54,158 nucleotides of DNA from a virus (IMGVR_UViG_3300022200_000061:1-54158); one strand, 5' to 3'. Positions 14,934 to 47,344 are shown, counted from the stretch's first letter. The notes: a model not told the origin generated them from the sequence alone. Numbers and translations: made by a program.

Positions 14934-14965
14934 ATATATACCGCCTATCGGCCCTGTTTGTGAGA
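14934..14965 (-). promoter_or_regulatory. Putative phage late promoter (element copy 1)
   Basis: On the minus strand: TCTCACAAACAGG, ten bases, then GGTATATAT. The same arrangement with the same spacing occurs at 25548-25580 (minus) and 47312-47344 (plus). It lies in an AT-rich island (14820-14979) about 105 bases upstream of the scaffold ATG. TATATA would be a -10 and CACAAA is placed about right for a -35. Together with the terminator at 12511 it would bracket scaffold, coat and decoration genes as one unit. Confidence 0.6.
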
Positions 14966-14979
14966 GACGGTGTTAAATT

Positions 14980-15219
14980 TTATTCGATAAGAGAGATAAT
15001 TTCTGCGAGTGCGCGTTCATATCCAATCGAATCAGCAACGTAATTAGCCCAATTAGGCTTATCGTAGTTAGCATCTTTACGAACTCCTACTCGTTTGGTT
15101 TCAATCTTATCCTCAAGAATCTTCTTCATGCGCTTACGTAGAAGATGGGAGGACGTAAAGTCCCCCTTCATCTCTAGCGTGGCGTCTGGCTCTAGGCCAT
15201 CAACCCAAATTGATTTCAT
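14980..15219 (-). CDS. Hypothetical 79-aa protein after portal
   Basis: MKSIWVDGLEPDATLEMK start, then a basic middle (LLRKRMKKILEDK) and a helical C-terminus (ERALAEIISLIE). Ribosome site AAGGAAT. It lies between portal and the AT-rich island with the putative late promoter, so it is the last gene of the packaging-portal transcript. No family recognised. Confidence 0.6.
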   Translation of the reverse strand: MKSIWVDGLEPDATLEMKGDFTSSHLLRKRMKKILEDKIETKRVGVRKDANYDKPNWANYVADSIGYERALAEIISLIE

Positions 15220-15228
15220 TACTATTCC

Positions 15229-16998
15229 TTAGAGGTCAGTTGGAATTGATTCAGGATCGGCTGGCGTTTGCTGCTGTACTTCCATATCCTCGGAAGCCTG
15301 GTCCATCAGTGAAGCAGTTTCCTGCTGTTCAGCCACTGCAACGTTCGGACGGAAGATATCGTAACCACGCATGTTCGTAGTATCCTTGATAAACTCCGTA
15401 AGAGCGATAGCGGACGTGTGTGGCATGACTTGCTGCCAGATGGGGGTCTGACTAAGGCCAATGATGTTTTGCAGCTCAGTGGCTTGCTGTGCGAAGTGAC
15501 GGGCACCTACAGGACGGATAACACCGCTTGCAGTAATGTCTTCCTTCGTGATCTCAAAGAACTTCTGACTACCAAGTGCTGTGTCAAGTACACGAACAGT
15601 CTCGACAGCATCAAAGTTACGACGAGCAGCTTCAAGCATACCGTTCAGTGCGGGCTCAAGGAACTCAAGCTCAAAGTTCGTGATCTTCTCTTGGAAGATA
15701 CGAGCAGAGGCATTATCCAGAAGCTGTACCTCAAAGGCGGTCTTCTCACCGGGACTACGGACACCCATTGCTTCACGCGGAGCGCCAGCAAAGAGTTCCA
15801 TCTGATCCATGATTGCCTGAATCTCATTGTTGGCAACGATGATGGAGTTGAGGTTCTGACCAAGCTCCTGAACGTCACCGTTCTCATCAATATGGATAGG
15901 GACACCCGGACCCCAAGTAAACTGCTCAACCTCACCAATGATCTTCAGAGGCGGGTGAATAGTCAGGTCCATAGCGTCGGCCTTCAGGTTCTCAAGGTGG
16001 TCAATGCGATACTGCATGCCAACAAGATTGTCCAGCGGACCCATTGCCCAGAGGTTATCTGGACGGAAGCGCCAACCAACGTGGAAGATGGGGGCTGTGC
16101 CACCATACGTAGGCATCTCAACATTACGAAGCTCAACAGAGCGGTCAGCAATAGTGATCAGCCGGTTGGTCTGCAGTTCGCCTGTGTCAGCGTTATGAGA
16201 GTCGCCATAGAACTCAAGAAGCTCAACATACTCGCCCATATAGTATTCGTACAGACTGCCGAAGCCATCTACCTGATACTGAGAGGCTGTGTTGAAATCC
16301 TCGCGCTTATAGCCACCAACCAGTTTACGCACAGCGTCACGATGCTCAAGCACCTTATTCAGATACGCATCATCAGGGTTGGTCATAGCTCGCTTCTTCA
16401 GCTCACCAAGAGTGGTGGTGGAGCGTACGATCTTAAACGTATCCTTAAACGACGTTGCAAGGGGGTTGAAGACGATGTTCTCTGGGGAGATGCGCATAAG
16501 CCGGGGGCCAATGTAAACAGGCGTCTGATCCCCTGTCTCGTCAGTGAACACTCGGTTCTCATAAACCACAGTACCAAAGGCATTGCCATAGTCGATGTAG
16601 TCATAGAGAAGCTTGCTTACCTCAGTACGGAACTTACTCTCACGAGTCTTGTTTTCCATATAGGCGGTGATGTTACGAGACTTCTCTTTCTTAGCAGCAT
16701 CCTTGGTGTATGCTTGCCAAGACAACCACTTATCATTCGGGAATGCCGAGGTGAGATAGTTGGAGTGGAGGTTATCACGAATCTGTGTTAGCTTTGGCAG
16801 CGTAGTGCTGTTCTTCCAAGGCAATGTCTGATTACTAGTGCTACTAGTATCGGTGGCAAACAAGTACTGCTTAAGCTCCAACCATTCTGCCATCTTGTTA
16901 GATCGCTGGTTGTTGTACGTGTCCCACATATTAGAAATCCATCCAGCCGAGGGCTGTGGAGCAAGCACGGCTTGAATTTCTGCTACTGCGTCTGACAT
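15229..16998 (-). CDS. Portal (head-tail connector) protein, 589 aa
   Basis: Length and place (after the large terminase, before scaffold and coat) match podovirus portals. Visible features: N-terminal WISNMWDTYNNQRSNKMAEW; the wing/stem region GPRLMRISPENIVFNPLATS; YRIDHLENLKADAMDL followed by a LAGAPREAMGVRSPGEKTAF segment, a typical portal crown/tunnel-loop neighbourhood; and a Gln-rich acidic tail. It forms the dodecameric DNA gate and binds terminase and adaptor. Ribosome site AAAGGAATA. Family assignment is by order and overall pattern. Confidence 0.85.
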   Translation of the reverse strand: MSDAVAEIQAVLAPQPSAGWISNMWDTYNNQRSNKMAEWLELKQYLFATDTSSTSNQTLPWKNSTTLPKLTQIRDNLHSNYLTSAFPNDKWLSWQAYTKDAAKKEKSRNITAYMENKTRESKFRTEVSKLLYDYIDYGNAFGTVVYENRVFTDETGDQTPVYIGPRLMRISPENIVFNPLATSFKDTFKIVRSTTTLGELKKRAMTNPDDAYLNKVLEHRDAVRKLVGGYKREDFNTASQYQVDGFGSLYEYYMGEYVELLEFYGDSHNADTGELQTNRLITIADRSVELRNVEMPTYGGTAPIFHVGWRFRPDNLWAMGPLDNLVGMQYRIDHLENLKADAMDLTIHPPLKIIGEVEQFTWGPGVPIHIDENGDVQELGQNLNSIIVANNEIQAIMDQMELFAGAPREAMGVRSPGEKTAFEVQLLDNASARIFQEKITNFELEFLEPALNGMLEAARRNFDAVETVRVLDTALGSQKFFEITKEDITASGVIRPVGARHFAQQATELQNIIGLSQTPIWQQVMPHTSAIALTEFIKDTTNMRGYDIFRPNVAVAEQQETASLMDQASEDMEVQQQTPADPESIPTDL

Positions 16999-17007
16999 AT
17001 TATTCCT

Positions 17008-18612
17008 TTATCTAAATGCTACGCCGCCGAAGCGGGATTGCTTGGGGCCACTAAGCAAGAAGTCGGCAACTGCCGCCCCTGAGTTCCTCTGTGGCTTTAC
17101 GGCTATACTGACGGCTGATGCTAGGGCATCCTTCACGTCATCATGAGATGGACGGGCCTGAACAAGCTCTTCTTCGAGAACTGGTGTCCAACCACCCTCA
17201 AAATGCCACATCTTGTCGTCGTCGTAGCGAGGCTCTAGGGCTGCAGCAATACGCTGTTCCTTCGTACCCTCTTGACGGGTTGGTCGGTATTCTACAATGG
17301 AGAGGGACATGCCCTTCCGTTTAACGTGGTCCTTGATCGCTTCCACAATGACAACCTGTGCCACCGTGACTTCGGCCTGAAGTTTCTGGAACTTCCATTT
17401 GGCATGAAGCGTTGCGATATGCTCGAAGTACTCGATAATCTTCTTCGTCTTGAAACGTTCGATGTCTAGGACATAGATGTTGGACTCAGAGTCGATACCA
17501 ATCACTACAATAGCTGTCCAGTCGGCTGCGCGGTTCAGAGAGAAGGCAAAGTCAACTGCAGCATAGATGTTAAGGCGATTGCCATTGTACCGCCAGCGAC
17601 CCCCTTCTAGGCGAAGGAAACGTGGATTGAAATACTGGAATTTGTTCCGATCAATTCGGTTGGAGCTACTGTCGTTTGGATTGTTGTAGTACTGTGCATA
17701 GAATTGTGTCTGATCACTGTACTCAGCCTTAATACGAGCCAGCGTACCACGGTCAAAGCCGAATGCCTTGTTATCCGAAGGACGTACCATACGTGGCCAC
17801 AAGAACAAACCATCCGTCTCAACAACGTATTCCTGAATTTCCCACACATTCTTCTTATCGAGCAGTAAGCCCTCGTCGTCATACACTTCGTATGACTGTT
17901 CCTTCCACAACGCGTAAACGTCATTCGGATGGTAGCGAGTGCCACAAGCTAGGGTGAAGCCACCGGGATTACGAATGGAAGTAAACTGTGAAGCTTTCTT
18001 CGACACGTTATCTCGGCCATCTTCTGTGTAGGCATTCTCAGGCACAACCAAGTCATCGCCCAGAATGATGTCAGCATGCCACCCAGTCGTGTTGGTAGTC
18101 AAACCAGCAGTGGAGATGGTGGCATCTCGGATACCCTGCTTACGACGCTCTACGTGGTCTACAGACATCTTCTTGACTGACCACTTCTCTCGCAGACCCT
18201 CCTGCGGGTTAATGTACTCAGGGTAGAACCGTTGGTACACTGTGGAGCCAAGGATATTCTGAATAGCAAAGAGCTGCGTTTCAGCTAGTTCCGCGGTAGC
18301 GGAAAGGTATAGCATTGTTACTTCAGGATGACGAGTGATGATCCAAGCTGCCCATGTAGCCACCATGTGGGACTTAAGATGTCCACGAGGAAGCATGATA
18401 AGCTTATTGCTAGTAAGGTCATTACTTCGACCAAACAGATTGTACTCCTGCATCCAACGGAAGATTTCACGATGAATCTCTCCATACATATAGCCGGGGT
18501 TCACTAGTTTGGCGAAGTAATACAAGTCTTCTTTGGCACGTTCACGGATATCCAAAGCTTGCTTCGGCATACGCTCAATCTGACTATAGGCGTCTACAAG
18601 CCATTGGTCCAT
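17008..18612 (-). CDS. terL: Terminase large subunit (534 aa)
   Basis: ATPase half: PRGHLKSH near residues 75-82 is the Walker A-like loop and DIILGDDL near residue 185 the Walker B acidic pair. Nuclease half: AAVDFAFSLNRAADW near residue 355 gives the first metal-binding Asp of the RNase H-like fold, and HDDVKDALA near the C-terminus a later one. It pumps and cuts DNA at the portal. The gene overlaps the small terminase stop by one base. The type looks closest to T7-like terminases; the packaging strategy (pac or terminal repeats) cannot be told from here. Confidence 0.92.
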   Translation of the reverse strand: MDQWLVDAYSQIERMPKQALDIRERAKEDLYYFAKLVNPGYMYGEIHREIFRWMQEYNLFGRSNDLTSNKLIMLPRGHLKSHMVATWAAWIITRHPEVTMLYLSATAELAETQLFAIQNILGSTVYQRFYPEYINPQEGLREKWSVKKMSVDHVERRKQGIRDATISTAGLTTNTTGWHADIILGDDLVVPENAYTEDGRDNVSKKASQFTSIRNPGGFTLACGTRYHPNDVYALWKEQSYEVYDDEGLLLDKKNVWEIQEYVVETDGLFLWPRMVRPSDNKAFGFDRGTLARIKAEYSDQTQFYAQYYNNPNDSSSNRIDRNKFQYFNPRFLRLEGGRWRYNGNRLNIYAAVDFAFSLNRAADWTAIVVIGIDSESNIYVLDIERFKTKKIIEYFEHIATLHAKWKFQKLQAEVTVAQVVIVEAIKDHVKRKGMSLSIVEYRPTRQEGTKEQRIAAALEPRYDDDKMWHFEGGWTPVLEEELVQARPSHDDVKDALASAVSIAVKPQRNSGAAVADFLLSGPKQSRFGGVAFR

Positions 18613-19115
18613 TACACCACCTCATTCATACGGATAACATCTGCAGTGAGTTCTTCGTTGATCTTGTTGTCAATCCGATTCTCACGATCCTGCTGGGCCT
18701 TAGAAGGTCGGCCAGCACCACGCTTATCCCAACCACGATCAGCAAGCCACTTGGCTGCCTGAAAGTTGCTACCATCTGCAGTCATGTCTCGGATCGCCTG
18801 AATAGCGTCACAACGCATGACAACTTCCAACTCTTCACGCCACTCATCGAACTGCTCTCGGAGCATCTTGTTCTCGTTAAGGCGTTTCCAGTGGGACCAG
18901 TTAAGAAGGTACTTCTTAGCGAACTGGTACTCGGTGGGGTCTTCTGTCTCTAGGTAGAGCTTCTTGAGCGAGGGATACACTCGCCCATCATATGTCTTAT
19001 CCTCGTCATTGAAGGTGAATACAGCATACTGGACATTGTACCCACATTCTAGAAAGAGAGACTGCGTTAGCGGCCTCCCCATCGTATCCAATAGTTTTGT
19101 CTTATCAATTTTCAT
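18612..19115 (-). CDS. terS: Terminase small subunit (probable, 167 aa)
   Basis: Immediately upstream of terL and overlapping it by one base. Helical and charged, with RLNENKMLREQFDEWREELE and a C-terminal basic patch (RGWDKRGAGRPSKAQQDREN) that resembles small terminases, which often carry a W-D-K-R-x-x-G-R-P segment near the end. It would recognise viral DNA and recruit TerL. No clear helix-turn-helix is seen, so the call rests on place and the C-terminal motif. Confidence 0.75.
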   Translation of the reverse strand: MKIDKTKLLDTMGRPLTQSLFLECGYNVQYAVFTFNDEDKTYDGRVYPSLKKLYLETEDPTEYQFAKKYLLNWSHWKRLNENKMLREQFDEWREELEVVMRCDAIQAIRDMTADGSNFQAAKWLADRGWDKRGAGRPSKAQQDRENRIDNKINEELTADVIRMNEVV

Positions 19116-19117
19116 AA

Positions 19118-20782
19118 TTACTCCACGACACTGCTTGTGCCATCATTCGTTACAAAGTCAGTCGATGGACCACACCCTACAGTACCACCAGTGTCAGTGT
19201 CGGTATAGTTGATGCAGGTACGAGTATCTACATGAACGCCCACAGACCCAGTACGAATTAGGATAGGTGGCACAGTGTTGCCAGTGGACTCTAGGTAGAT
19301 GTTAGAGATAAACCAACGGCGACCAACAACGTCAATAGCACGACTAGTACCACTGCCCCAACGCTGGATAACATTGTCTCGGATGACACCACGGGCACCA
19401 CCATACGAGTTCACAACGATTGGCAGAGTACAGTCACTGATCTCGTTGTTTACAATACGCAGGGCTTCGGGACCGGGGTTATTCACAGTACCAAGGCCAG
19501 ACTGAATACCACGGCCCATCCAGTAGATGTAGTTGCCCTCAATATTGAAAACGTCTCCACCGATCTGGCGAACAGTATTTGTATTGATCTTAATGGCGAT
19601 AGTCCCAGAGAGAACAGACTGATTGAGGTTCCCCTGTTCATCACCATGCGTCTGGCGAGTAAACATACAGCCACGAATATTACCACGACCAGAGTGCGCC
19701 ACATTGAGTGCAACTTGGTTGGCAGCAGTTAGAACGAAACGAATATCCAGAATCTCGATATGAGTGGATCGCTCGTTGTTAGCATCAGCTTCACTGAATG
19801 GGCGAGTGAACATTGTACCAGCCACCGCAGTAGCCTTTAGGATCGTGACACCATGGCCCTGTCCCTTAATACGCAGGTAGTCGGAAAGCTCAAGCTCAGC
19901 GTCACCATCAATGATGAAAAGACCGGCTGGGATATTTAGCTGTGCTACCACATTCTCTGGAGAGCCAGTAGCCCACCAATTGGCCTGAATGTACGCCATA
20001 GCATTAGTGAACGCTGTAGTGTCATTGGTAGTACCATCACCCTTAGCGCCCCACCACTTGACATTAAAGCCCTGTGCTGTGTCTCGACGAACCCATACGC
20101 CAACAGTTGCTGCAATGGCTGTAGCCTTCACGTAGATTGCTTCTGATGTATCGGCAGCTACTTCCGCACTATAGTCGCCAGACGCCCAGACGAACCAGCC
20201 ATCCTTACCGCTCTCAAGCACGAGTACGCCATTGTAGTCTGAAGTGTCCACAGCCTTCAGAGCTGTGATAGTGGCAGCGGCTGTTACTGAACTCCCGACA
20301 GGGAATACAATAGCGCCAATCATATCTGCTACCAACTTATTCGTTGGGAGTACAGTGTCGTCAGTAGGCGCTGTGCCTTCTACGCTGGTCTGTACGAGAG
20401 CAGGGGCGAGTTTAGCTAGTGTGACTGCACCGTCTGCAATCTCAGTGTTGCCCACTGCGTTGTCGGCAATATTATCTGAATCAACGGCGTTAGCATTGAT
20501 TGTCCATACACCACCACCACTAACTGTGATGTCACCCTTATCGCCAGAAGGGATACCTGTTACTGAAGATGTGATAGCAACGCCATCAATGTTCACAGCG
20601 TTGAAGTAACCGACATTCGCATTTAGGATGTCATTGCTATCCATGTCAAGATCAGCACCCATACTATTAGGCACAGTACCGGCTGTACTAACAGCTTCCT
20701 GCAGGGCAGCTTCAACACGAGTGAAGTTGGTGGTGATGTTGTCTAGGCTATTACTATTTAGGAGGCTTACGTCAATTGCCAT
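19118..20782 (-). CDS. Tail spike with beta-helix depolymerase domain (554 aa)
   Basis: The N-terminal ~130 residues (MAIDVSLLNSNSLDNITTNF; then DGAVTLAKLAPALVQ) are of the short repeat type that anchors fibres to podovirus tails. FNVKWWGAKGDGTTNDTTAF near residue 240 is the classic opening of pectate-lyase-3-type right-handed beta-helix spikes. After it come beta-helix-like repeats (IRIVNNEISDCTLPIVVNSY; GVIRDNVIQRWGSGTSR). Such spikes bind and often cleave capsule or O-antigen. Together with the SGNH hydrolase the virion would carry two polysaccharide-active proteins. Unusually, it is the second gene of the late arm, ahead of terminase. Confidence 0.8.
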   Translation of the reverse strand: MAIDVSLLNSNSLDNITTNFTRVEAALQEAVSTAGTVPNSMGADLDMDSNDILNANVGYFNAVNIDGVAITSSVTGIPSGDKGDITVSGGGVWTINANAVDSDNIADNAVGNTEIADGAVTLAKLAPALVQTSVEGTAPTDDTVLPTNKLVADMIGAIVFPVGSSVTAAATITALKAVDTSDYNGVLVLESGKDGWFVWASGDYSAEVAADTSEAIYVKATAIAATVGVWVRRDTAQGFNVKWWGAKGDGTTNDTTAFTNAMAYIQANWWATGSPENVVAQLNIPAGLFIIDGDAELELSDYLRIKGQGHGVTILKATAVAGTMFTRPFSEADANNERSTHIEILDIRFVLTAANQVALNVAHSGRGNIRGCMFTRQTHGDEQGNLNQSVLSGTIAIKINTNTVRQIGGDVFNIEGNYIYWMGRGIQSGLGTVNNPGPEALRIVNNEISDCTLPIVVNSYGGARGVIRDNVIQRWGSGTSRAIDVVGRRWFISNIYLESTGNTVPPILIRTGSVGVHVDTRTCINYTDTDTGGTVGCGPSTDFVTNDGTSSVVE

Positions 20783-20985
20783 TACTTACGTCCCGTCTTT
20801 CTACTTGGTTTCTTTGTAAACTTATTATATGAGTTGGTATAAGAACTGGCTTTACCCACCCCAGCAAAACTCTGTGTCTTGAATGAAGTGCTTGACGGTC
20901 CTTTAGGTGTAGCAATGCTCTGTGTTCCGAAATATGCTCGAACGTCCATCACATTCCCACTTTGCTTTCTGCCTGATGTTTTCAT
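20782..20985 (-). CDS. Small basic protein at head of late arm (67 aa)
   Basis: MKTSGRKQSGNVMDVRAYFG start and a KKPSRKTGRK end. Very rich in Lys, Ser, Gly and Thr and lacking an obvious hydrophobic core, so probably an unfolded nucleic-acid-binding or virion-packed peptide. Ribosome site GGTAGGACA. Overlaps the tail spike start by one base. No family recognised. Confidence 0.5.
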   Translation of the reverse strand: MKTSGRKQSGNVMDVRAYFGTQSIATPKGPSSTSFKTQSFAGVGKASSYTNSYNKFTKKPSRKTGRK

Positions 20986-21956
20986 TGTCCTACCTATGTC
21001 GATATCTTATTGATGAATTGTAATGAACTGTTATCGACTCACTGCGTTCGTCACAAATACTGATGGGGTTTCCAACTCTGTGGATTTCCCGGAGAAAGTT
21101 TGGAGGTGTAATGCACTATAATCACACCCCCCACACACCCCCTTGTACCCCCTACGGTATTATTGTACCGCTTGGCCCCGGTGTGTGTTGCATTGACCCT
21201 CCCTCCCTCTGACCACATTCCTATCTACTCCTAACCCGTTGATATTAAAGGGGTTATTGTTATTAAACGCCTACGGCACACGACTCTGTTCCTATTTGTG
21301 TATGACGATAGGTGTGTAGTCCTATGAGTGGTGATGTTGGCACGGTTATTGATAGATGCATATATCATGCCATGTTGTGTTAGTGGTTGGCATGGTACTT
21401 GCTACAGGTGTGTGCGTTTCCATGTTTGGACTGTTATGTAGTGCCATTGACTGCTATTTCATGGCGTAACCTATTGAGATATATACATAAACCAAAATAG
21501 TTTGATGAATATGCGTTTTCTTGTTGCAACGGATGATAGCCTATGACATTGTTGGTTCATCGAAAGGGGCACAGCGTCCTTTAGATCACCGGGGCGTCAT
21601 ATGCTAGCGGTGGGATAGGTTACACAGACCTTGTAGTTAGGGTATTGGGCCGGTCTATTGGTTATCGCCGTCGGTGATGATCGGGTAGAACGCCGCTAAC
21701 ACAAGCAAGTGGTTGGCCGCGGGAACGTTGATAGCCTTGCCATATGCAAGGTGTTATCATCGGCAAGTCAGCACGACTTCGCAGCACTTCCAAAAGCAAC
21801 AGAACATATGTGTGTGTTGAATGAGCGTTGGCGTTAGTTGACAATCGTTTGGCCTTGACATGGTGGGCGGTCTGACAACCTGCCCTTGATTGATTATGTA
21901 TGTTCTGCCCTCACCTTTAGCATATGACGCTTATACTATCACGAAAGGAAACCGTA
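20986..21956. other. ~970-base noncoding region between the two divergent arms
   Basis: No convincing gene on either strand. Contents seen: pyrimidine/C-rich tracts near 21120-21235 (runs of CCCCC and CCCTCC); a small hairpin CGGTA/TACCG at 21155-21170; CCATG/CATGG inverted repeats near 21373-21400; two TTGACA hexamers near 21838 and 21856 without a good -10 partner; and TATACT near 21936 just ahead of the first early gene. Leftward late genes and rightward early genes both start from here, so it should hold early promoters and perhaps an origin. I cannot place either. Confidence 0.5.
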
Positions 21957-22142
21957 GTGTTCACTCATAAAGAATGCCCCCAAGGCTTGGTTACTGCCAA
22001 GCGTGTGCCTTTTGTCCATGTCAATGGTCGCATGACCCGTGACAATCGTGGGCGTGAGGTAGAGCTATCTTGCACTGTCAAAGGCTCAAGCACGGAACGT
22101 TTCAACACTGGCTATCCTATTGGCTTTCATAAGTGGTATTAG
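21957..22142 (+). CDS. First early protein, 61 aa, hypothetical
   Basis: Likely GTG start at 21957 because AAAGGAAA lies 7 bases upstream; the in-frame ATG at 21924 has no ribosome site and overlaps a TATACT promoter-like box. Sequence FTHKECPQGLVTAKRVPF, mixed basic/acidic, ends PIGFHKWY. As the first gene of the early arm it may act in host takeover, but no family is recognised. Confidence 0.5.
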   Translation: MFTHKECPQGLVTAKRVPFVHVNGRMTRDNRGREVELSCTVKGSSTERFNTGYPIGFHKWY

Positions 22143-22154
22143 CTAATCACTACG

Positions 22155-22205
22155 TTTGGCACTTCTCATAATGCAGGTATCTCAACTGTGTTAAGAAGTG
22201 CCAAA
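22155..22205. repeat. 12-bp perfect inverted repeat around 27-base loop
   Basis: TTTGGCACTTCT (22155-22166) pairs perfectly with AGAAGTGCCAAA (22194-22205). It lies in the short gap between the first two early genes. The right arm carries GAAGTGCC, the core of the intergenic repeat family seen at four other early sites. There is no T-run, so not a classic terminator. Confidence 0.8.
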
Positions 22206-22230: not shown

Positions 22231-22242
22231 AAAGGTATTGAT

Positions 22243-22833: not shown

Positions 22834-22860
22834 CATCAACGTCTAACGTTTGATACTTAG

Positions 22861-25547: not shown

Positions 25548-25580
25548 ATATATACCGGCTGAGAAGCCTGTTTGTGAGAA
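25548..25580 (-). promoter_or_regulatory. Putative phage late promoter (element copy 2), antisense to early genes
   Basis: Minus strand: TTCTCACAAACAGG, ten bases, GGTATATAT. It sits in an AT-rich island with further ATATAGATAT repeats and a CCGAT-TATC-ATCGG hairpin at 25506-25519. Transcription from here would run leftward, antisense across the early genes 25444 to 21957 and on toward the tail spike and terminase genes. The plus strand of the same site also supplies the AAAGGAAA ribosome site of the gene at 25593. Confidence 0.55.
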
Positions 25581-36984: not shown

Positions 36985-37166
36985 TGCTATCTTTCTATGG
37001 AAATGTTAAAATCGAAGGGCCTCCTGAAGAGGTTGATTTTCTTCACCGTCTTATTCAAAAGGCGGAGGCAGCACAAGTTCGTCGATCTGCCACAGTACCT
37101 TACTGTGAGGACTTCGGACGTTGTAATTGTGTGAAAGGGCAGTGTGACAAAGGGCTCGTGACATGA
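36984..37166 (+). CDS. Hypothetical Cys-rich 60-aa protein
   Basis: ATG 36984 overlaps the helicase stop (TAATG). MLSFYGNVKIEGPPEEVDFL; near the C-terminus CEDFGRCNCVKGQC gives four Cys that could bind zinc. Overlaps the sigma factor gene start. No family recognised. Confidence 0.55.
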   Translation: MLSFYGNVKIEGPPEEVDFLHRLIQKAEAAQVRRSATVPYCEDFGRCNCVKGQCDKGLVT

Positions 37167-39589: not shown

Positions 39590-39603
39590 TAAAGGAAAAT
39601 TTA

Positions 39604-40296
39604 ATGGCACTTAATGCACGTAAAGTAAAGAATACTTCTGGCCCCAAGGCCCCACTGCTTGATGAGGGTGCATATCCTGCACGTCTTGTTCAGGTAATTG
39701 ACCTTGGCCTACAGCCACAGGAATATAAGGGCGAGACTAAGCCCCCTAAGAATGAAATGTGGCACACATATGAACTCTCTGATGAGTTTATGCCCGGTGA
39801 AGATGGTGAACCAGATGAGACGAAGCCACGTTGGTTGTCTGAACGTCTGCCACTGAACAGCCTTGGTAGTGATCTCGCTAAGTCCACTAAGCGTTACTAC
39901 GCTCTGGACCCCAAGGAAGAACACGATGGTGATTGGACTGCACTGCTTGGTAGCCCAGCTATCCTTGCTGTCACTGTCAACGGTGAATACAATAACATCG
40001 GTGGCACCTCCACTATGCGTCCCAAGGAAGCGGCCAAGTGTCCTGAGCTGGTGAACGATACGAAGGTGTTCTCTATGGATGATCCTGATGTTGAGGTATT
40101 CCTCAGCCTTCCAGACTTCCTGCAGAAGATCATCAAGGATGGCCTTGAGTTTGAAGGCAGTAAGCTTGATGGCCTTCTGGCTAAGCATAAGGGTGGTGAT
40201 AAGCCAGTATCCAAGACGAAGGAGGTAGTCGAAGATGATAACATCCCTTTTGATAATGAGCCTGAAGCTGACACCGATGATGGAGACGAATGGTAA
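39604..40296 (+). CDS. Single-stranded DNA-binding protein (probable), 230 aa
   Basis: Follows the polymerase, as gp2.5 genes often lie near it. The body is beta-rich (GAYPARLVQVIDLGLQPQEY; LLGSPAILAVTVNGEYNN), compatible with an OB fold. The C-terminus is very acidic and ends in an aromatic residue (DNEPEADTDDGDEW), the hallmark of phage and bacterial SSBs that contact polymerase and helicase. No sequence motif fixes the family. Ribosome site AAAGGAAA. Confidence 0.75.
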   Translation: MALNARKVKNTSGPKAPLLDEGAYPARLVQVIDLGLQPQEYKGETKPPKNEMWHTYELSDEFMPGEDGEPDETKPRWLSERLPLNSLGSDLAKSTKRYYALDPKEEHDGDWTALLGSPAILAVTVNGEYNNIGGTSTMRPKEAAKCPELVNDTKVFSMDDPDVEVFLSLPDFLQKIIKDGLEFEGSKLDGLLAKHKGGDKPVSKTKEVVEDDNIPFDNEPEADTDDGDEW

Positions 40297-40610
40297 TGGT
40301 TGATAAGAAAGACTACATCCACCCCATGTCCTTTGTATTTGTCAACACTGACAAGTTCGAGGCTGAAGAAGGTGGTGTGAAGAAGGGTGACGTTCTCTTT
40401 GTGGTGGGCACACGTGCCCTTCCACTGTCCAAGGAAGACCCTTACACCCAGCGTGTGTTCATTATGGCTCAGCCAGTTGTTGATGATTACATTGATACCA
40501 CTGGTAAGGTGTACATCCTCGATCCTCTCAGCGTAACTAACGTTGAAGAGGGAGAGGCTAAGCGCCTTATGGAACTCGCTCAGGAACGTGCTAATGCGAC
40601 TCTTCAGTAA
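40296..40610 (+). CDS. Hypothetical 104-aa protein
   Basis: MVDKKDYIHPMSFVFVNTDK, then VLFVVGTRALPLSKEDPYTQ and a helical acidic C-terminus (EEGEAKRLMELAQERANATL). Coupled to the SSB by TAATG. Probably replication-associated by place; no family recognised. Confidence 0.6.
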   Translation: MVDKKDYIHPMSFVFVNTDKFEAEEGGVKKGDVLFVVGTRALPLSKEDPYTQRVFIMAQPVVDDYIDTTGKVYILDPLSVTNVEEGEAKRLMELAQERANATLQ

Positions 40611-40713
40611 GGTTGGTTGGTGGGTGTTTGATAACATTCCACTTGGTAATCTGGCACCCTATTGGTTTGGAATGTTGATTGGCCGTTGGCCCCACCGCGT
40701 AAAGGATAAGTGA
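40594..40713 (+). CDS. Hypothetical 39-aa peptide, hydrophobic/aromatic
   Basis: MRLFSKVGWWVFDNIPLGNL then APYWFGMLIGRWPHRVKDK. Trp-rich, possibly membrane-associated. Overlaps the upstream gene by 17 bases and the next ATG by one (TGATG). Confidence 0.45.
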   Translation: MRLFSKVGWWVFDNIPLGNLAPYWFGMLIGRWPHRVKDK

Positions 40714-40874
40714 TGTATACAGTCTACCTTAAGGGCAAGTACTCTCCACACGGCACTGACTGGATGCACGGGGAGAGCGTCCGACACACTTCCACTGGCA
40801 TCTGGGTTTACCCAAGCTTCTACGACAGCAAGCCTACATTCTTTCCGTGGTCTAGTGTAGAACGGGTAGGATAA
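40713..40874 (+). CDS. Hypothetical 53-aa protein
   Basis: MYTVYLKGKYSPHGTDWMHG, ends WSSVERVG; aromatic-rich, probably a small beta domain. TGATG and TAATG overlaps tie it to both neighbours. No family recognised. Confidence 0.5.
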   Translation: MYTVYLKGKYSPHGTDWMHGESVRHTSTGIWVYPSFYDSKPTFFPWSSVERVG

Positions 40875-41785
40875 TGGTTCAGCCACTGATCGACGGTGAC
40901 ATCTTCTGTTACGAAATCGGTAGCGTGGGTCAGTACTTCCACGAGACTGAAACAAATGAAGATGGTACACCTAAATTGGTCATCCGGTCCTTTGACTGGG
41001 TGGCTGAGACACTAGACCAACGGATAAAGGACATTTGCGAGGCCGTAGGAGCCACTACAGCGCCTTTAGTGTACCTCACTGGGGATGAACGCCTCTGGAA
41101 GATGAAACGCCGTGTACGGCCTTCTCTGCCAGAGTATGCTCCCAACTTCCGTATTGCTGGTGCAGTCAGTAAGGAGTATAAGGGTGGACGAAAAGTTGAT
41201 AAGCCTTATCATTACAACAATATTCGTGCTTACCTCATGGTTCATTATCAAGCTTACGTGGCCAATGGTATGGAAGCTGATGATGCAATGGCGATTGAAC
41301 AAACGAAGAGGTATGATCCATCCCACGCGGACGATTATTCTTCCGCACAAACCATCATCTGTACCCGAGATAAAGACCTCCGACAAGTTCCCGGATGGCA
41401 CTACGGTTGGGAGTGTGGTAAACAGGCTGAATTTGGACCCCACCATTATGACAGCCTTGGAACGATCGAGCTTGATCGCTCAAAGAAGCCACCAAAAATC
41501 ATTGGTGGAGGATTTGCATTCTTTTGTTCACAGCTCATCACAGGAGATGTCGTTGACAACATCGGAGGGCTACCAAAACGCGGGCCTGTTGCCGTGGTTA
41601 ATATATTGGGAGGCAAAGAGACATCTTCCGAACTGCTCAATGCAGTGGTCAACGAGTACAAGATCGTTTATCCTGACGCGTGGAAGGAACGACTAAGGGA
41701 GCAGTGCAATCTGTTGTGGATGGTGCGTGGGTATAGTGAGGATGGCACATTGAAAATGTTTAACCCAAAGGATATCGGCGAATGA
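40874..41785 (+). CDS. 5'-3' exonuclease (T7 gp6 / FEN-like), 303 aa
   Basis: PLIDGDIFCYEIG (4-16) gives the first metal-binding Asp of the PIN/FEN fold. GMEADDAMAIEQ near 136 and ICTRDKDLRQVPG near 160 give the next acidic cluster. QLITGDVVDNIGGLPKRGPV near 222 holds two more Asp and a helix-hairpin-helix DNA-binding element. It removes RNA primers and probably degrades host DNA. Same place after the SSB-like gene as in several T7-like phages. Confidence 0.88.
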   Translation: MVQPLIDGDIFCYEIGSVGQYFHETETNEDGTPKLVIRSFDWVAETLDQRIKDICEAVGATTAPLVYLTGDERLWKMKRRVRPSLPEYAPNFRIAGAVSKEYKGGRKVDKPYHYNNIRAYLMVHYQAYVANGMEADDAMAIEQTKRYDPSHADDYSSAQTIICTRDKDLRQVPGWHYGWECGKQAEFGPHHYDSLGTIELDRSKKPPKIIGGGFAFFCSQLITGDVVDNIGGLPKRGPVAVVNILGGKETSSELLNAVVNEYKIVYPDAWKERLREQCNLLWMVRGYSEDGTLKMFNPKDIGE

Positions 41786-41952
41786 AGTTGTATGTTGTGT
41801 CGGGCCAAACTGAAAGTGGTGACGACTATGTTTTCATTTGGCAAAATGAGCCTACTAAAGAGCAGATTGAAGCAGTTGGTTGGCCAGAAGAGATGGAGGC
41901 TGGCACTATGAATTTGCCATCATCTGCACAAGGTTACGAAACGGAGGATTAA
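41782..41952 (+). CDS. Hypothetical 56-aa acidic protein
   Basis: MKLYVVSGQTESGDDYVFIW, then KEQIEAVGWPEEMEAGTMN. ATGA overlap with the exonuclease gene and TAATG with the next. Small acidic alpha/beta protein; no family recognised. Confidence 0.5.
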   Translation: MKLYVVSGQTESGDDYVFIWQNEPTKEQIEAVGWPEEMEAGTMNLPSSAQGYETED

Positions 41953-42170
41953 TGGCTAACATCACCTTGCCTAGAGGAAGTAGAAACCGTTGGTATTTCG
42001 TTATTGTTATGCCACTAGATAAGAACGGCTACGGCCCAAGTTCGGACAAGGCTTGCCATAAAATAACATGGGAGGTGTGGGATCAGGTGTGCGATACCTT
42101 TGGGTCGTACGATTATTTGTCTGATGCTATTGACCGAGCTGAAGAACTTAACGAGGAATATTATGGCTAA
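41952..42170 (+). CDS. Hypothetical 72-aa protein
   Basis: ATG 41952. MANITLPRGSRNRWYFVIVM, acidic helical C-terminus (YLSDAIDRAEELNEEYYG). Coupled to neighbours. No family recognised. Confidence 0.5.
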   Translation: MANITLPRGSRNRWYFVIVMPLDKNGYGPSSDKACHKITWEVWDQVCDTFGSYDYLSDAIDRAEELNEEYYG

Positions 42171-42339
42171 GTATGTTGAATACAAATCCAAGAAATTCAA
42201 ACTCCAGAAGGATGGGATTGCTTGGGCTAAGAAGATTAAGGCAAGCTTCAAGGGCGCTAAGACCATGAAGGTTGAGACTAACTATAACGCTAACAATGAA
42301 CTTGAACCGTGGACAGCCATCGTGCTGATGAAGCAGTAA
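42163..42339 (+). CDS. Hypothetical basic 58-aa protein
   Basis: ATG 42163. MAKYVEYKSKKFKLQKDGIA, then KKIKASFKGAKTMKVETNY: Lys-rich, probably nucleic-acid binding. Ends TAATG into the HNH gene. No family recognised. Confidence 0.5.
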   Translation: MAKYVEYKSKKFKLQKDGIAWAKKIKASFKGAKTMKVETNYNANNELEPWTAIVLMKQ

Positions 42340-42755
42340 TGGCAAGGCCATCAGGCCCTAAGACACGATGTAATGGTACATGGACTGAAGCTAAATTTCG
42401 TTCGTTCATTCGTGGCAATCTGCGGCGGGTGTCCATGAAATGGGCTCCAATTCAAACAACACTAGGCAAAGCACGGGTGAGTAGAGGTTTCTACCAGTGT
42501 GCTGGCCCTTGTCAGGAGATAGTCCCCGCTACTACTAAGGTAGATGGTAAGCGTGTGAAGAATGTTCACGTGGATCATATCGAACCAGTTATCGACCCAG
42601 TAGTTGGGTGGGTATCATGGGATAGCCTTATTGAACGTATGTTCGTAGAGGAAGAAAACCTACAAGTACTATGTGATGCTTGCCATAAGGCAAAGACAGA
42701 TGAAGAAAAAGCTGCAGCAAAGCAGCGTAGAGACGGAGAAAAAGACTTTGAGTAA
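42339..42755 (+). CDS. HNH endonuclease, 138 aa
   Basis: MARPSGPKTRCNGTWTEAKF start at 42339 (TAATG). CAGPCQEIV (zinc Cys pair), VHVDHIEPV (H-N-H first His with D-H), ENLQVLCDACHKAKTDEE (Asn, second Cys pair and His) make a full HNH finger. Such genes near the replication block may process DNA during replication or packaging, or be free-standing homing genes. Overlaps the next gene. Confidence 0.85.
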   Translation: MARPSGPKTRCNGTWTEAKFRSFIRGNLRRVSMKWAPIQTTLGKARVSRGFYQCAGPCQEIVPATTKVDGKRVKNVHVDHIEPVIDPVVGWVSWDSLIERMFVEEENLQVLCDACHKAKTDEEKAAAKQRRDGEKDFE

Positions 42756-42990
42756 TACTTTCAATGGCTACGGGTTGTTCAACGATGTACTTAACCCAAC
42801 CCTAAAGACTTGGAACCAAGCTAATGTGTTCATGAATGTTCGTCAGAACCATGGCCCAGAGGTTGGTATGAGTTACCTCCGTAAACTTAAGCGTAAGGAT
42901 CAGGTAGCCTTGCATCAGCTTATGTCCCACATTCAAGCTCACGGCTACGAACAGACCCGTCGTGACATTATGCGAAAGAACAATGCCTAA
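42748..42990 (+). CDS. Hypothetical 80-aa protein
   Basis: TTG 42748 is preferred: GACGGAGA lies 9 bases upstream, and the overlap with the HNH stop is short. SNTFNGYGLFNDVLNPTLKT, helical, basic C-terminus (YEQTRRDIMRKNNA). Ends TAATG into the HAD-like gene. No family recognised. Confidence 0.5.
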   Translation: MSNTFNGYGLFNDVLNPTLKTWNQANVFMNVRQNHGPEVGMSYLRKLKRKDQVALHQLMSHIQAHGYEQTRRDIMRKNNA

Positions 42991-43337
42991 TGAAGATTGC
43001 AATAGATTACGACAATACATACACCGAAGACCCAGAGTTTTGGTATGAGTTTATGTCTAACGCTCGTGCCAAGGGTTATGAGGCGTTCATCGTGACATAT
43101 CGAGATGAGCGATATGATATGACTGATGGGCTTGAGTTTCTTATTGAAGATGACTTTGAAGTCTACTTCACCCGTGGTGTTGCTAAGAAGTGGTGGATGC
43201 AGCAATTCGCTAAATGGGAACATAAGAGCGTCAGTGTTTGGATTGACGACAAGCCAGAAGCCATCCTTAACAACTCTTCCCTCGACGTTGAAGGTTTAGC
43301 AGCATGGCGTGAGGAGAATGCTCGTGTCAGTGCTTAA
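42990..43337 (+). CDS. HAD-like phosphatase, 115 aa
   Basis: IAIDYDNTYTEDPEF: motif I D-x-D-x-T with the nucleophile Asp. FIVTYRD is motif II (T). KKWWMQQ may supply the Lys, and SVWIDDKPEAI the motif IV D-D. Compact, no cap domain. Possibly a nucleotide or polynucleotide 5'/3' phosphatase that would fit with the RNA ligase at 34204, as in end-healing pairs (inference). Confidence 0.75.
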   Translation: MKIAIDYDNTYTEDPEFWYEFMSNARAKGYEAFIVTYRDERYDMTDGLEFLIEDDFEVYFTRGVAKKWWMQQFAKWEHKSVSVWIDDKPEAILNNSSLDVEGLAAWREENARVSA

Positions 43338-43653
43338 GACGGATAGCGCATCCCGTAAGAAGTACCCAATGGCCCGTGGGTTGTTGGACTATTTCCCAGA
43401 CGCGCTGGCTGAAGTATCCAAGGTGAGCTATCTTGGTAATGAGAAACACAATCCCGGAGAGGAGATGCACCATGCACGAGGCAAGTCTATGGATCACGCT
43501 GACTGTATCGTTCGTCATCTCGTTGGTCGGGGCGGTTTTGATGGGGAGGTGCGGGAGTCCGCAGCCTTGGCTTGGCGAGCCCTCGCCCTCCTACAAGAAG
43601 AACTAGAGAATGAATTGAATCTTCCACTACCTCGTGGAGCCAAGAAGGAGTAA
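43318..43653 (+). CDS. dATP/dGTP diphosphohydrolase-like (DUF5664 type), 111 aa
   Basis: KKYPMARGLLDYFPDALAEV, KVSYLGNEKHNPGEEMHHAR, GKSMDHADCIVRHLVGRGGF and AALAWRALALLQEELENE are the ordered motifs of the phage family once called DUF5664, linked to dATP/dGTP diphosphohydrolase activity; H-x3-R-x6-D-H-x-D residues would hold metal. Start ATG 43318 or the in-frame GTG 43324, both just after GAGGAG. Last TAA sits next to the non-AUG start of the exonuclease gene. Confidence 0.75.
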   Translation: MLVSVLKTDSASRKKYPMARGLLDYFPDALAEVSKVSYLGNEKHNPGEEMHHARGKSMDHADCIVRHLVGRGGFDGEVRESAALAWRALALLQEELENELNLPLPRGAKKE

Positions 43654-43658
43654 TTGTA

Positions 43659-44432
43659 ATCGCACGTATTCTAATCCTAGATATTGAGACAAGCCCCAAC
43701 ATTGCTTACGTATGGCGCTTCTTTAAGGAGAACGTCGGTGCTAAGCAGGTGTTGGAGAATGGCACAGTGCTGTCCTTCGCTGCTAAGTGGCTTGACAGTA
43801 ATGAAATCTACTATCAGGACGTAAGTAACGATAGTGAACTGAATATGATGAAGGTGTTGTTCAAGCTTCTGGATGAAGCAGACATTGTTATTGCCCACAA
43901 TGGTGATAAGTTTGATCTGCCACACATTCAGGGACGTGGTGTTGTCCTTGGCCTTAAGCCGCCCGCACCATACAAGACTGTAGATACAGTGAAGGTGGCT
44001 CGCTATGAGTTCAACTTCCCATCCAATTCTCTTGAGTACTTGGCCAAGGTGCTTAAGCTCAAGAACAAGAAGGATGGGCACCAGAAGTTCCCCGGCTTTG
44101 AGCTGTGGCTTGGTGTACTTGCCAACAACCCTGAAGCATGGGCTGAGATGCGAGAGTATAATGTTCAGGACATTCTCGTCCTAGAAGAACTGTACCTCAA
44201 GATGCGTCCTTGGATGCGTCGTCATCCCAACGTTGGTGTGTTTGAAGACAATGAAAAGGTTGTATGTCCGAAGTGTGGTGGTGATCATCTCCAGTATCGT
44301 GGGTATGCTCATACTAGTGTGGGACGCTTCCGTCGGTTCCAATGTAATGGCTGTGGTGGTTGGGGTCGTACCCGAACTTCTGTCTATCCGAAAGAACTAA
44401 GGGAGAACCTTGTTGTCAACGTGGCTAACTAA
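43659..44432 (+). CDS. DEDD 3'-5' exonuclease with zinc ribbon, non-AUG (ATC) start, 257 aa
   Basis: RILILDIETSPNIAYVW gives the D-x-E motif; DIVIAHNGDKFDLPHI the second Asp; YNVQDILVLEELY the third; an RNase H-like exonuclease. The C-terminus VVCPKCGG...FQCNGCGG is a zinc ribbon fused on. Between the upstream in-frame TGA and the first internal Met (43749, after the D-x-E motif) there is no ATG, GTG or TTG. ATC 43659 sits 8 bases after AAGGAG exactly where homologues would start M-A-R-I-L; ATT 43653 overlaps the upstream TAA. Either a rare start or a G-to-C change. Confidence 0.8.
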   Translation: MARILILDIETSPNIAYVWRFFKENVGAKQVLENGTVLSFAAKWLDSNEIYYQDVSNDSELNMMKVLFKLLDEADIVIAHNGDKFDLPHIQGRGVVLGLKPPAPYKTVDTVKVARYEFNFPSNSLEYLAKVLKLKNKKDGHQKFPGFELWLGVLANNPEAWAEMREYNVQDILVLEELYLKMRPWMRRHPNVGVFEDNEKVVCPKCGGDHLQYRGYAHTSVGRFRRFQCNGCGGWGRTRTSVYPKELRENLVVNVAN

Positions 44433-44607
44433 TTTCGCTATCTACTACCTAGCTGTCGGCTATGTGGTGAATAATATTATTGGCCTTATGGCCATCTATG
44501 GCAGTGGTGGACGAATGGGTGTCGATATTGGGGCATTCATTCTAACCATCCCCACTTGGCCCTACACATTGTATCAGGCTATTGGTGGCCTGTTCGGAGA
44601 GGAGTAA
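44410..44607 (+). CDS. Two-helix membrane protein, 65 aa
   Basis: TTG start at 44410 or 44413 after GGGAGAAC. NFAIYYLAVGYVVNNIIGLM and GVDIGAFILTIPTWPYTLYQ are hydrophobic. Ends FGEE. Overlaps the exonuclease end by 23 bases. No family recognised. Confidence 0.5.
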   Translation: MLSTWLTNFAIYYLAVGYVVNNIIGLMAIYGSGGRMGVDIGAFILTIPTWPYTLYQAIGGLFGEE

Positions 44608-44608
44608 T

Positions 44609-44788
44609 ATGACTGAGATTGTACTGGCTTTTCTAATGGTGTTCACAGGCAATGGCACGTATGTGCTAGAGACTGTAACCTCTATGCCTCTGAGCCAATG
44701 TCTTGATGAAGCTGGCAAGGTCAACTTTGACGACACACATAACTATGTGATGTTCTGTGGACCAGCAGGAGAGACTGTTGAAGGTTGA
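44609..44788 (+). CDS. Possible secreted 59-aa protein
   Basis: ATG 44609 with GGAGAGGAG. MTEIVLAFLMVFTGNGTYVL is signal-peptide-like; the remainder has two Cys that could form a disulfide (SQCLDEAG; VMFCGPAG). If exported it would act in the periplasm, e.g. against superinfection, but no family is recognised. Overlaps the thyX start. Confidence 0.5.
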   Translation: MTEIVLAFLMVFTGNGTYVLETVTSMPLSQCLDEAGKVNFDDTHNYVMFCGPAGETVEG

Positions 44789-45452
44789 TCTTATTGATGT
44801 GATGGGTGACGATCTCCGAGTGGTTAATTCCGCTCGGGTGTCGTTCGATAAGGAGAGTGGTCTAGATTACTCTATCGAAGATGAGGGGGAGCTAAGTTCT
44901 AAAGATATCAAGCTCCTTAACTATCTAGCCAAGCATGGACACTGGACACCATTCAGCCATGTACAGATCACTATGCGTGAGACTGTCCCTATCTTCATCG
45001 CTCGTCAGCGGTTCAAGCATATGGTGGGGTTCACTTACAATGAAGTATCTCGAAGGTACGTCTCTGACGAGCCGTCCTTCTTCGTACCGGAGTCGTGGCG
45101 TAAGGCTGCTGATAATGTAAAGCAGGGCAGTAGTGACGAGACTGTAGAGCGCCATCCGTTGGCGGCTTACACTATTGCTGAAGCTTACGAGCAAGCAGTA
45201 GGGGCTTGTCAATCGTGCTACAATACAATGCTTGAAGCAGGTGTAGCCCCTGAGCAAGCCCGTATGGTGTTGCCTCAGTCTATGTACACCAGTTACTATG
45301 TGACGGGCTCTCTTGCAGCCTGGGCTCGGGCCTACAAGCAGCGTATTGACTCTCACGCACAGAAGGAAATCCAAGACCTTGCTCGTGAATGGGGTCGTGC
45401 TTTTGAACAACTGCCCCAGCTAAAACATTCGTGGGAGGCGCTAGTAGCATGA
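44778..45452 (+). CDS. thyX: FAD-dependent thymidylate synthase, 224 aa
   Basis: TTG 44778 chosen: CAGGAGAGA lies upstream and MKVDLIDVMGDDLRVVNSAR is the standard ThyX opening. WTPFSHVQITMRETVPIFIA and ARQRFKHMVGFTYNEVSRRY carry the flavin- and dUMP-binding signature, but the usual R-H-R triplet reads K-H-M here. QARMVLPQSMYTSYYVTGSL is the second substrate motif. It makes dTMP from dUMP with methylene-folate and NADPH. Fits with RNR, MazG and DUF5664 as a nucleotide supply set. Confidence 0.92.
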   Translation: MKVDLIDVMGDDLRVVNSARVSFDKESGLDYSIEDEGELSSKDIKLLNYLAKHGHWTPFSHVQITMRETVPIFIARQRFKHMVGFTYNEVSRRYVSDEPSFFVPESWRKAADNVKQGSSDETVERHPLAAYTIAEAYEQAVGACQSCYNTMLEAGVAPEQARMVLPQSMYTSYYVTGSLAAWARAYKQRIDSHAQKEIQDLAREWGRAFEQLPQLKHSWEALVA

Positions 45453-45643
45453 AGGTCAAATTTGATGTAGATGAGGAAGGTAGGTCAACTATGGTCTACC
45501 TTTCTGATGATGGAAAACACTCCTGTGACGCTGTGTATATGACCAACGGGCTGACCTTGCCAATTGAACAGTTGGAAAGCCGTATAGAAAGAGCCAAGGA
45601 AGCCGAGAAAAACTATTTGGAAAATTTCCTCACAAACAACTAA
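45449..45643 (+). CDS. Hypothetical 64-aa protein
   Basis: MKVKFDVDEEGRSTMVYLSD then a C-terminal coiled-coil-like helix (ESRIERAKEAEKNYLENF). ATGA overlap with thyX. No family recognised. Confidence 0.55.
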   Translation: MKVKFDVDEEGRSTMVYLSDDGKHSCDAVYMTNGLTLPIEQLESRIERAKEAEKNYLENFLTNN

Positions 45644-45686
45644 GATAGTCGGTATACATAACTACCACTAAACAAAAGGATGGTAG

Positions 45687-46145
45687 ATGAAAATTCAGGG
45701 ATCACCCTGTCCCATATGTAACCGAGCTAGAGAATATGTGTCGGAGGTAAACGCTGCCAAAGGAAAGGGTAAGCCATGTCGATCTTGTGCCAACTCAATT
45801 AAGGGTGGTGGGGTCGGATGGAGTCCTCTTTGTGCAGACTGTGGGATAAGGGCTAAAACAGGTAAACACAACTCGCAGTGTAAAGAGTGCCATAATAAAC
45901 GTAGTAGTAAGTATCACAAAGAAGTTTATCGTTGGGCTAAGTACGGCCTGAATGGGCCAATAGCCATGGCCGAATGTGAAATTTGCAAAGCAGTTGAAGA
46001 CCTAGTTATTGATCATTGCCATGACACACAAGTAGTAAGGGGTGTGCTGTGTCGTACATGCAATATGGCTCTAGGGCTGCTTAAAGAAAATAAAAACAAT
46101 GTAAGGAGTGCCTTAAAATATGCAGAACGAACATTCAACAATTGA
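45687..46145 (+). CDS. Recombination endonuclease VII-like HNH protein, 152 aa
   Basis: C-terminal half: CEICKAVEDLVIDHCHDT, RGVLCRTCNMALGLLKEN is the T4 endonuclease VII family core (two zinc Cys pairs around D-H-x-H and Asn). N-terminal half adds three more Cys pairs (CPIC, CRSC, CADC/CKEC), like extra DNA-binding zinc fingers. Endo VII-type enzymes trim branched DNA before packaging, but in T7-like phages free-standing copies beside RNR genes can be homing enzymes. It lies in a small gap-flanked island (45644-45686) and overlaps the RNR start, which keeps both readings open. Confidence 0.8.
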   Translation: MKIQGSPCPICNRAREYVSEVNAAKGKGKPCRSCANSIKGGGVGWSPLCADCGIRAKTGKHNSQCKECHNKRSSKYHKEVYRWAKYGLNGPIAMAECEICKAVEDLVIDHCHDTQVVRGVLCRTCNMALGLLKENKNNVRSALKYAERTFNN

Positions 46146-47235
46146 TTTGCCCAAAGACATTTTGAGTCAGGTCACTATTTTTGGCAAGTATGCCCGACAC
46201 ATCCCATCACTCAACCGTCGTGAGACTTGGGCTGAGATTATTGAACGAAACAAGCTGATGCATCAGCAGAAGTATCCCAACATTGCTGACCTGATTGATG
46301 AGGTATATGATCGCTCGGTACTGACGAAACACATCCTTCCTTCTATGCGGTCCCTACAGTTCGCAGGAGTCCCTATTGAACGTAATCCTTCTCGCATTTA
46401 CAATTGTGCGTATCTCCCTATTGAGGACACTGATGCGTTTGCTGAGATCATGTTTCTACTTCTTGGTGGAACAGGGGTCGGCTATTCTGTACAAGATCGA
46501 CATGTATCGAAACTACCTGTTGTCTGCGGACCTAAGGGCAAGCCACGTCGCTATGTCATCGGAGATTCAATCGAAGGCTGGGCAGATGCTGTTAAAGTTC
46601 TTATTGAAGCATATTTCAATGGCAAGGCCGGAGTAAATTTTGACTATGGAGACATCCGAGAAAAAGGAAGTGAGCTTGTCACCTCAGGAGGCAAAGCTCC
46701 GGGACCAGAACCACTACGAGAATGCCTCAACCGAGTACGAGATGTTCTTGAGGGAAGTATCGGACGGAAACTCAGCCCAATCAATGCTCATGACATCGCT
46801 TGTTATCTCGCTGATGCTGTACTTGCTGGGGGTATCCGTCGGGCTGCTATGATTAGCCTGTTCTCGATTGACGATGAAGAAATGATTGGAGCTAAGAGTA
46901 GTTCGGTTGTATCCAACCTCATAAGTCGAGAGGATGTAGATAATAAAACCATAAAGCTTTGTATCGAACAAGGTGGTATTGTCTATAACGATATTCTTGT
47001 CAAGCGGGCCAAGGAAACAGATAAGTATTGGGACATTGAGCAGTATGAGCGAGACGGAACATTCGGATGGTGGGTCACGAACCCACAGCGATCACGAGCT
47101 AATAACAGCGTTGTCCTCCTACGAGGGCACGTCAGTGAGGGACGTTTTAAAGAGCTTTGGGACCGAGTTCGAGCTTCGGGTGCGGGTGAGCCGGGGTTCT
47201 ACTGGACGAACAATCTCGATTGGGGCACTAACCCT
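46120..47235 (+). CDS. nrdJ: Ribonucleotide reductase class II, exon 1 (372 codons)
   Basis: Adenosylcobalamin-dependent, monomeric RTPR-like enzyme. HIPSLNRRETWAEIIERN opens; SRIYNCAYLPIEDTDAF and LLLGGTGVGYSVQDRH hold the N-terminal redox Cys and the Gly loop. Exon 1 ends exactly after codon CCT of ...DWGTNP; the intron follows and the catalytic Cys is the first codon of exon 2. Unspliced, a stop arrives three codons on (47242-47244). Reduces ribonucleotides to deoxyribonucleotides for phage DNA synthesis, with electrons probably from the glutaredoxin at 33569. Confidence 0.93.
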
Positions 47236-47311
47236 GGTTTCTAAACAGGGGTTATAAAACGAATTGAATTCAGGGGATATCCAGAACGGACAATCCTGAG
47301 CTAAGCTTTTA

Positions 47312-47344
47312 TTCTCACAAACAGGTGATTTCTAAGGTATATGT
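47312..47344 (+). promoter_or_regulatory. Putative promoter for the intron HNH gene (element copy 3)
   Basis: TTCTCACAAACAGG, ten bases, GGTATATGT; same parts and spacing as the minus-strand copies at 14934 and 25548. The HNH ATG is 29 bases after it, with ACAGGAGCT as ribosome site. T4 intron endonucleases are likewise expressed from promoters within the intron (known for I-TevI). Confidence 0.6.

Follow-up and report, generated by a model that had tools for sequence, protein, structure and literature searches.

A bipartite DNA element that occurs in four copies in the window (the whole stretch of 54,158 nucleotides analyzed here, a virus contig with the Zobellviridae gene order of a podophage) is very probably a -35/-10 promoter recognized by the ECF-type sigma factor that this phage encodes, which would act together with the host core RNA polymerase. 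We favor this reading because the window holds four strong sites with nothing close behind, because the element recurs within single genomes, and because its positions are conserved. It is further favored because the left boxes follow region 4 of the sigma factor, with the residue aligned to R588 of sigma70 tracking the box type, and because SIO1 and VpV262, for which no sigma gene was detected, also have no promoter gap.

In this reading, sigma region 4.2 would recognize the left box TCTCACAAACAGG, the core of which is probably CACAAAC, as the -35 element, and region 2 would recognize the right box GGTATATAT as the -10 element. Bound to the host core RNA polymerase, the sigma protein would start transcripts a few bases past the TATA box. 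The scaffold and capsid genes would be transcribed from P1, and the remaining late operon (tail spike, terminase, portal) from P2, whose transcript would first cross early genes in antisense. The fourth element and P4 would provide endonuclease VII and the intron HNH gene with promoters of their own inside the replication operon.

Copies of the element in the window

The order of genes on the minus strand is terminase, portal, a small gene (phrog_8956), scaffold, and capsid. On the plus strand, early genes are followed by genes for amidotransferase, primase-helicase, sigma factor, DNA polymerase, and nucleotide metabolism (selected features in Table 1). As the preliminary description had proposed, no RNA polymerase was found among the 30 main proteins (PHROGs) or the long unassigned proteins (Pfam) of the window, and it is this assignment of the long proteins on which the gene is called absent. 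A direct repeat of 360 bases (1-360 vs. 51549-51908, 92.5% identical) is located near the record ends. A 37-base repeat starting with GTTAAGAAGTGCC or a similar sequence is present three times in the early region (22190, 23884, 25048), at or near gene starts.

Table 1. Elements and selected genes of the window.
Feature	Position	Strand	Description
Major capsid protein gene	13103..14050	-	phrog_267 major head protein, 7.5e-47; second gene after P1
Scaffold protein gene	14061..14819	-	tblastn to relatives annotated as scaffold; phrog_7931; first gene after P1
P1 (copy 1)	14934..14966	-	left box CTCTCACAAACAGG, spacer GCCGATAGGC, right box GGTATATAT
P2 (copy 2)	25548..25580	-	left box TTCTCACAAACAGG, spacer CTTCTCAGCC, right box GGTATATAT
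ECF-type sigma factor gene, 153 aa	37163..37624	+	PHROG sigma factor, 2e-18; proposed reader of the element
Fourth, weaker element	45627..45659	+	TCCTCACAAACAAC, spacer TAAGATAGTC, GGTATACAT
Endonuclease VII-like gene	45687..46145	+	Pfam Endonuclease_7, 8.6e-14; after the fourth element
Probable group I intron	47226..47805	+	Rfam RF00028; splits the ribonucleotide reductase gene
P4 (copy 3)	47312..47344	+	left box TTCTCACAAACAGG, spacer TGATTTCTAA, right box GGTATATGT
HNH homing endonuclease gene	47373..47702	+	phrog_59, 8.6e-37; inside the intron

The gapped consensus TCTCACAAACAGG-N10-GGTATATRT matched three sites of the window without mismatch, at 14934-14965 (-), 25548-25579 (-), and 47313-47344 (+). 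The same three sites were the only ones when up to three mismatches were allowed, and there were none in each of 100 dinucleotide shuffles. This agrees with the earlier account of a three-copy element with unrelated spacers of exactly 10 bases and a 14-base left half that is identical in two copies and shares 13 of 14 bases with the third; the deviating base, a C, precedes the left 13-mer of copy 1, where copies 2 and 3 have T. The left 13-mer alone was no rarer than chance (18 sites with up to three mismatches vs. 17.9 expected), so the evidence lies in the exact left half together with the fixed gap. A weight matrix derived from four copies, the fourth being our addition, detected exactly four strong sites in the window (40.4, 39.0, 39.0, and 34.6 bits). 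The next independent site scored 9.2 bits.

P1 heads the scaffold and major capsid genes, as had been stated, with 114 bases to the scaffold ATG (14819), and its location is conserved in relatives. P2 is directed toward the late minus-strand operon beginning near 20985 and is antisense to the early plus-strand genes at 22.2-25.4 kb; it does not serve the adjoining gene, which has the opposite direction. The fourth element is separated by 27 bases from the endonuclease VII ATG, and P4, for which a role as head of the intron HNH gene had also been proposed, ends 28 bases 5' of the HNH ATG. Two features were unexpected: copy 3 is located in a probable group I intron, as in T4, and copy 2 is directed backwards through early genes. 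The intron matched the full RF00028 model with 39.5 bits (E 2e-8), below the gathering score of 50, and the pieces of the ribonucleotide reductase (46120-47244 and 47866-48798) are consecutive in phrog_367.

The weight-matrix scan showed no copy upstream of the primase-helicase/sigma operon of the window, which counts against the sigma-promoter reading. Sigma70-like early promoters between 20.7 and 25.7 kb were no commoner than in shuffles.

The element in related phages

The gap between the small gene and the scaffold gene was read directly in 18 sequenced relatives, and most of these gaps harbored a GTATATA- or CTATATA-like box with a left box upstream. Conservation ahead of the scaffold genes of relatives had been set as a test beforehand. 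It was observed in distinct metagenomic gaps: [AG]GTATA[TC] was present 15-65 bases past the preceding stop codon in 42 of 55, compared to a mean of 4.9 and a maximum of 11 in shuffles. The remainder of the same gaps contained 0.17 such motifs per search window. When metagenomic and sequenced gaps were taken together, an anchor TATA box was found 18-63 bases after the stop codon in 66 of 69; position -1 was G in 88%, and an A-rich stretch was conserved from -19 to -16. Since the anchor was picked as the first such TATA in the gap, its own columns are circular, and the count among the 55 metagenomic gaps is the independent figure.

In SIO1 and VpV262 just 4-13 bases precede the scaffold gene, which therefore leaves no room for a promoter. 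T2S1-k141_477764 counts against the reading, since it has a sigma gene, yet no scaffold gap and no recognizable element family. tRNA genes or tRNA-like stretches were seen between the scaffold promoter and the scaffold gene in LT986460.2 (42905-42976), L034, and L117; late transcription would therefore also yield tRNAs.

A motif search with the gapped consensus had been suggested for this genome and its relatives. It returned only the three sites in the window. With the window's left box as query, searches of relatives failed, because their left boxes differ and the scaffold-side element of each genome itself is needed. A scan of viral contigs with the exact gapped core gave 23 loci, two of which carry the window's own scaffold-side element; the others, by eye unrelated or repeated coding sequence, were taken as chance. 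The nearest relative, L109, showed no further copies, and its contig stops inside the scaffold gap.

For 15 genomes, we used the scaffold-side element as query against the genome that carries it, with 100 shuffles each. Its recurrence exceeded that of every shuffle in eleven genomes, of which three are near-identical Vibrio phages, and that of 99 shuffles in two more (13/15). For Klyazma, the level of recurrence was matched in 7 of 100 shuffles. PA11 and KZY1_1938105 have a scaffold-side box for which we found no recurrence elsewhere in the genome, and this counts against the reading. T4S1-k141_462158 harbors four copies, the scaffold-side element and three further ones. A search without known left boxes recovered the same elements in the window, T5S1, Asterion, V1.253, V1.264, CW02, KZY1_1027853, and T4S1_462158, and no such element family in VpV262 and SIO1.

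The left boxes vary between phages and recur within one phage. ACAAA-type boxes were present in the window, V1.253, Asterion, KZY1_1027853, and T4S1_462158, and GGG-type boxes in GP100, T4S1_776450, and the V1.264 group. Other left boxes were found in T2S2 (GACCCCATT) and Pecta (GAAACTTTTTC).

The phage sigma factor and its region 4

An ECF-like sigma factor had been proposed at 37163, and PHROG, Pfam, the SigW profile, and the predicted fold all agree with this assignment. Region 2 of the 153-aa protein was detected by Pfam (Sigma70_r2, 2e-7, 31.1 bits vs. a cut-off of 24). The match to region 4 was weak (Sigma70_r4_2, 19.3 bits vs. a cut-off of 25.7), and 6 of 11 relatives match this model. 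That region 4 is present is supported by the full-length profile match to SigW (PDB, 1.2e-15) and by the predicted fold, which matches ECF sigma factors and isolated -35-binding domains. The predicted fold consists of two helical domains with a low-confidence linker (84-91) and has no region 3.

Sigma genes of Zobellviridae were annotated by homology before, in the records of PA11, O4, and CW02, as was a sigma factor of Citrobacter phage CVT22 (PMC4505115). We found neither a target promoter reported for the annotated Zobellviridae sigma factors nor a Zobellviridae promoter of the present kind in the open literature, most subscription journals being outside this coverage. With the gene already annotated in some relatives, the new part is therefore its pairing with promoters.

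The sigma gene is located beside the primase-helicase gene in 17 of 19 relatives. T5S1_444551 was considered as an element-bearing phage without sigma gene and rejected, since the record does not comprise the stretch where the gene would be. PQ867842.1 is described as a complete circular record; joining its ends fuses the beginning of the primase-helicase to the end of the DNA polymerase, and the region in which the sigma gene would be expected is missing. In MG592629.1, MW824407.1, OX241436.1, and PQ867854.1, the stretch from primase-helicase to DNA polymerase encodes the sigma factor as two proteins, one with region 2 and one with region 4, whose genes meet in an ATGA stop/start overlap. IMG/VR G018:33167-33720 is a probable fifth case, derived from two separate matches. 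The overlap suggests that a two-polypeptide sigma factor may have been kept in a Vibrio phage clade.

We compared left boxes and sigma regions in 28 related phages having both the sigma protein and a scaffold-side box. Left-box similarity was related to region 4.2 (Mantel r 0.20, p 0.0008; p 0.0008 also in a partial test controlling for region 2) and showed no significant relation to region 2 (p 0.12; p 0.66 when controlling for region 4); these correlations are modest and Mantel tests leave some effect of relatedness, the main safeguard being the region 2 control. Position 141 was aligned by eye to R588 of sigma70, which we take to be a -35 contact. Arg at this position went with ACA-type boxes (8/12 vs. 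0/16, p 1.6e-4) and Asp, Glu, or Gly with GGG-type boxes (5/5 vs. 0/23, p 1e-5), in a test that was chosen after the first set had been seen. When all sigma columns were scanned against box class, three of the top four (150, 139, 141) were located in the last helix.

The TATATA boxes could serve host sigma70 too. Host sigma70 might read TATATA as -10 while a phage activator binds the left box, similar to MotA at the middle promoters of T4; the right boxes are indeed close to TATAAT, and the left boxes are phage-specific and not TTGACA. We consider this explanation unlikely, because an independent activator would leave unexplained that the left boxes track region 4 of the phage sigma factor.

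Positions of the elements and comparison with known systems

The recurring sites of relatives are located at the scaffold gene, where the late operon begins, upstream of primase-helicase, and, within introns, before HNH genes. The counterparts of P2 are on the late strand. They were found 490-530 bases before the first late gene, with no intervening gene, in V1.253 and V1.264. The P2-type site lies between early plus-strand genes in GP100, CW02, T2S2, and the window, and its distance to the late operon is about 4-5 kb in the latter three. In Klebsiella phage Asterion it overlaps a small annotated plus-strand gene (4563-4712). An early gene of this phage (PV891806.1, 3726-3938) matches the PHROG 'decoy of host sigma70' and also related nuclease families.

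Elements ahead of the primase-helicase/sigma/polymerase genes were present in V1.253, V1.264, PS32B1, 521E56, T4S1_776450, and T4S1_462158. These primase-helicase sites (P3), which have no equivalent in the window, were located near the gene in the Vibrio group and T4S1_462158, and about 1-1.5 kb off in CW02 and T2S2. The preliminary description had suggested a new sigma/promoter pair for late transcription. The relatives and the link to region 4 support such a pair; the regulon would not be late only, because many relatives have an element before primase-helicase/sigma.

An element ahead of an intron HNH gene was found in two phages. The counterpart of P4 is a copy in T4S1_462158 that precedes an HNH gene interrupting primase-helicase; of two group I intron matches around this gene, one is clear (E 1.4e-5) and the other marginal (E 0.48). 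KZY1_1938105 has a similar HNH gene with no visible element. By folding, we asked for two phages whether the long transcript hides the HNH ribosome-binding site, as for I-TevI; the site was unpaired at 36% vs. 53% and 34% vs. 57%, a weak difference in the expected direction on which we do not rely.

These positions also bear on the view that the element is bound for another purpose (replication origin iteron, packaging or recombination site) and is no promoter. In favor of such a site, copy 2 is directed away from the adjoining gene, and short G+C hairpins are possible in the spacers of copies 1 and 2. We regard this view as very improbable: many genomes have copies at a fixed short distance before the same genes, those at scaffold being on its coding strand, and several copies are directly ahead of the first genes of operons. 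The hairpins were dropped as a functional part because they are broken between the near relatives V1.264 and 521E56. The chance that the element is an RNA-level signal (processing site, terminator, or leader structure) is slimmer still, since, even if the gene upstream of scaffold could be trailed by a terminator or processing site and copy 3 lies within a folded intron, copy 2, antisense and flanked by early genes, would be part of no other known transcript, and what is conserved is a TATA box plus a left box co-varying with a DNA-reading domain, not a fold.

SIO1, VpV262, and their relatives are part of the T7 supergroup without RNA polymerase (PMC6775973), and we found no stated answer in the open literature to how late transcription works in such phages. 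A phage sigma factor with its own promoters would be a testable answer for most of the Zobellviridae, excluding SIO1 and VpV262. The presence of switches at the same genes in relatives, each in its own 'dialect', suggests how these T7-like phages may turn on late genes. More speculatively, and in our view possible rather than probable, the family may have swapped the T7-type RNA polymerase for a fast-evolving ECF sigma factor, the -35 reader and the left boxes changing together to give each lineage a private promoter set; P2 would silence early genes by antisense transcription, and mobile introns would adopt the local promoter type. The naturally matched pairs of region 4 and left box should be useful for understanding -35 reading by ECF sigma factors and for orthogonal promoters.

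In T4, a late promoter inside the td intron drives I-TevI (PMC2988022). The window would share with T4 that a homing endonuclease gene, carried by an intron in a gene of nucleotide metabolism, has a promoter to itself; T4 uses gp55 and a different promoter, whereas the present case, known from its sequence alone, has an HNH gene and an ECF-type sigma factor. The promoters of phiEco32 gp36 have the sequence tAATGTAtA (PMC8948821). There too a phage sigma factor directs later transcription by the host core polymerase, but the promoters are single elements and the sigma factor lacks region 4. Salmonella phage 7-11 has the sigma factor SaPh711_gp47 and late promoters of the type GTAAtg-(16)-aCTA, and its authors predicted further sigma/promoter pairs (PMC8948821). 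It belongs to another family; the boxes of the window are of ACAAAC type and TATATA, relatives have other left boxes, and the system described here, so far read from genomes, is family-wide with left boxes co-varying with region 4. Like phage 7-11, these phages have a sigma factor with region 4, which would use the host core polymerase, and two boxes with fixed spacing at several sites, ahead of late genes and conserved in relatives.
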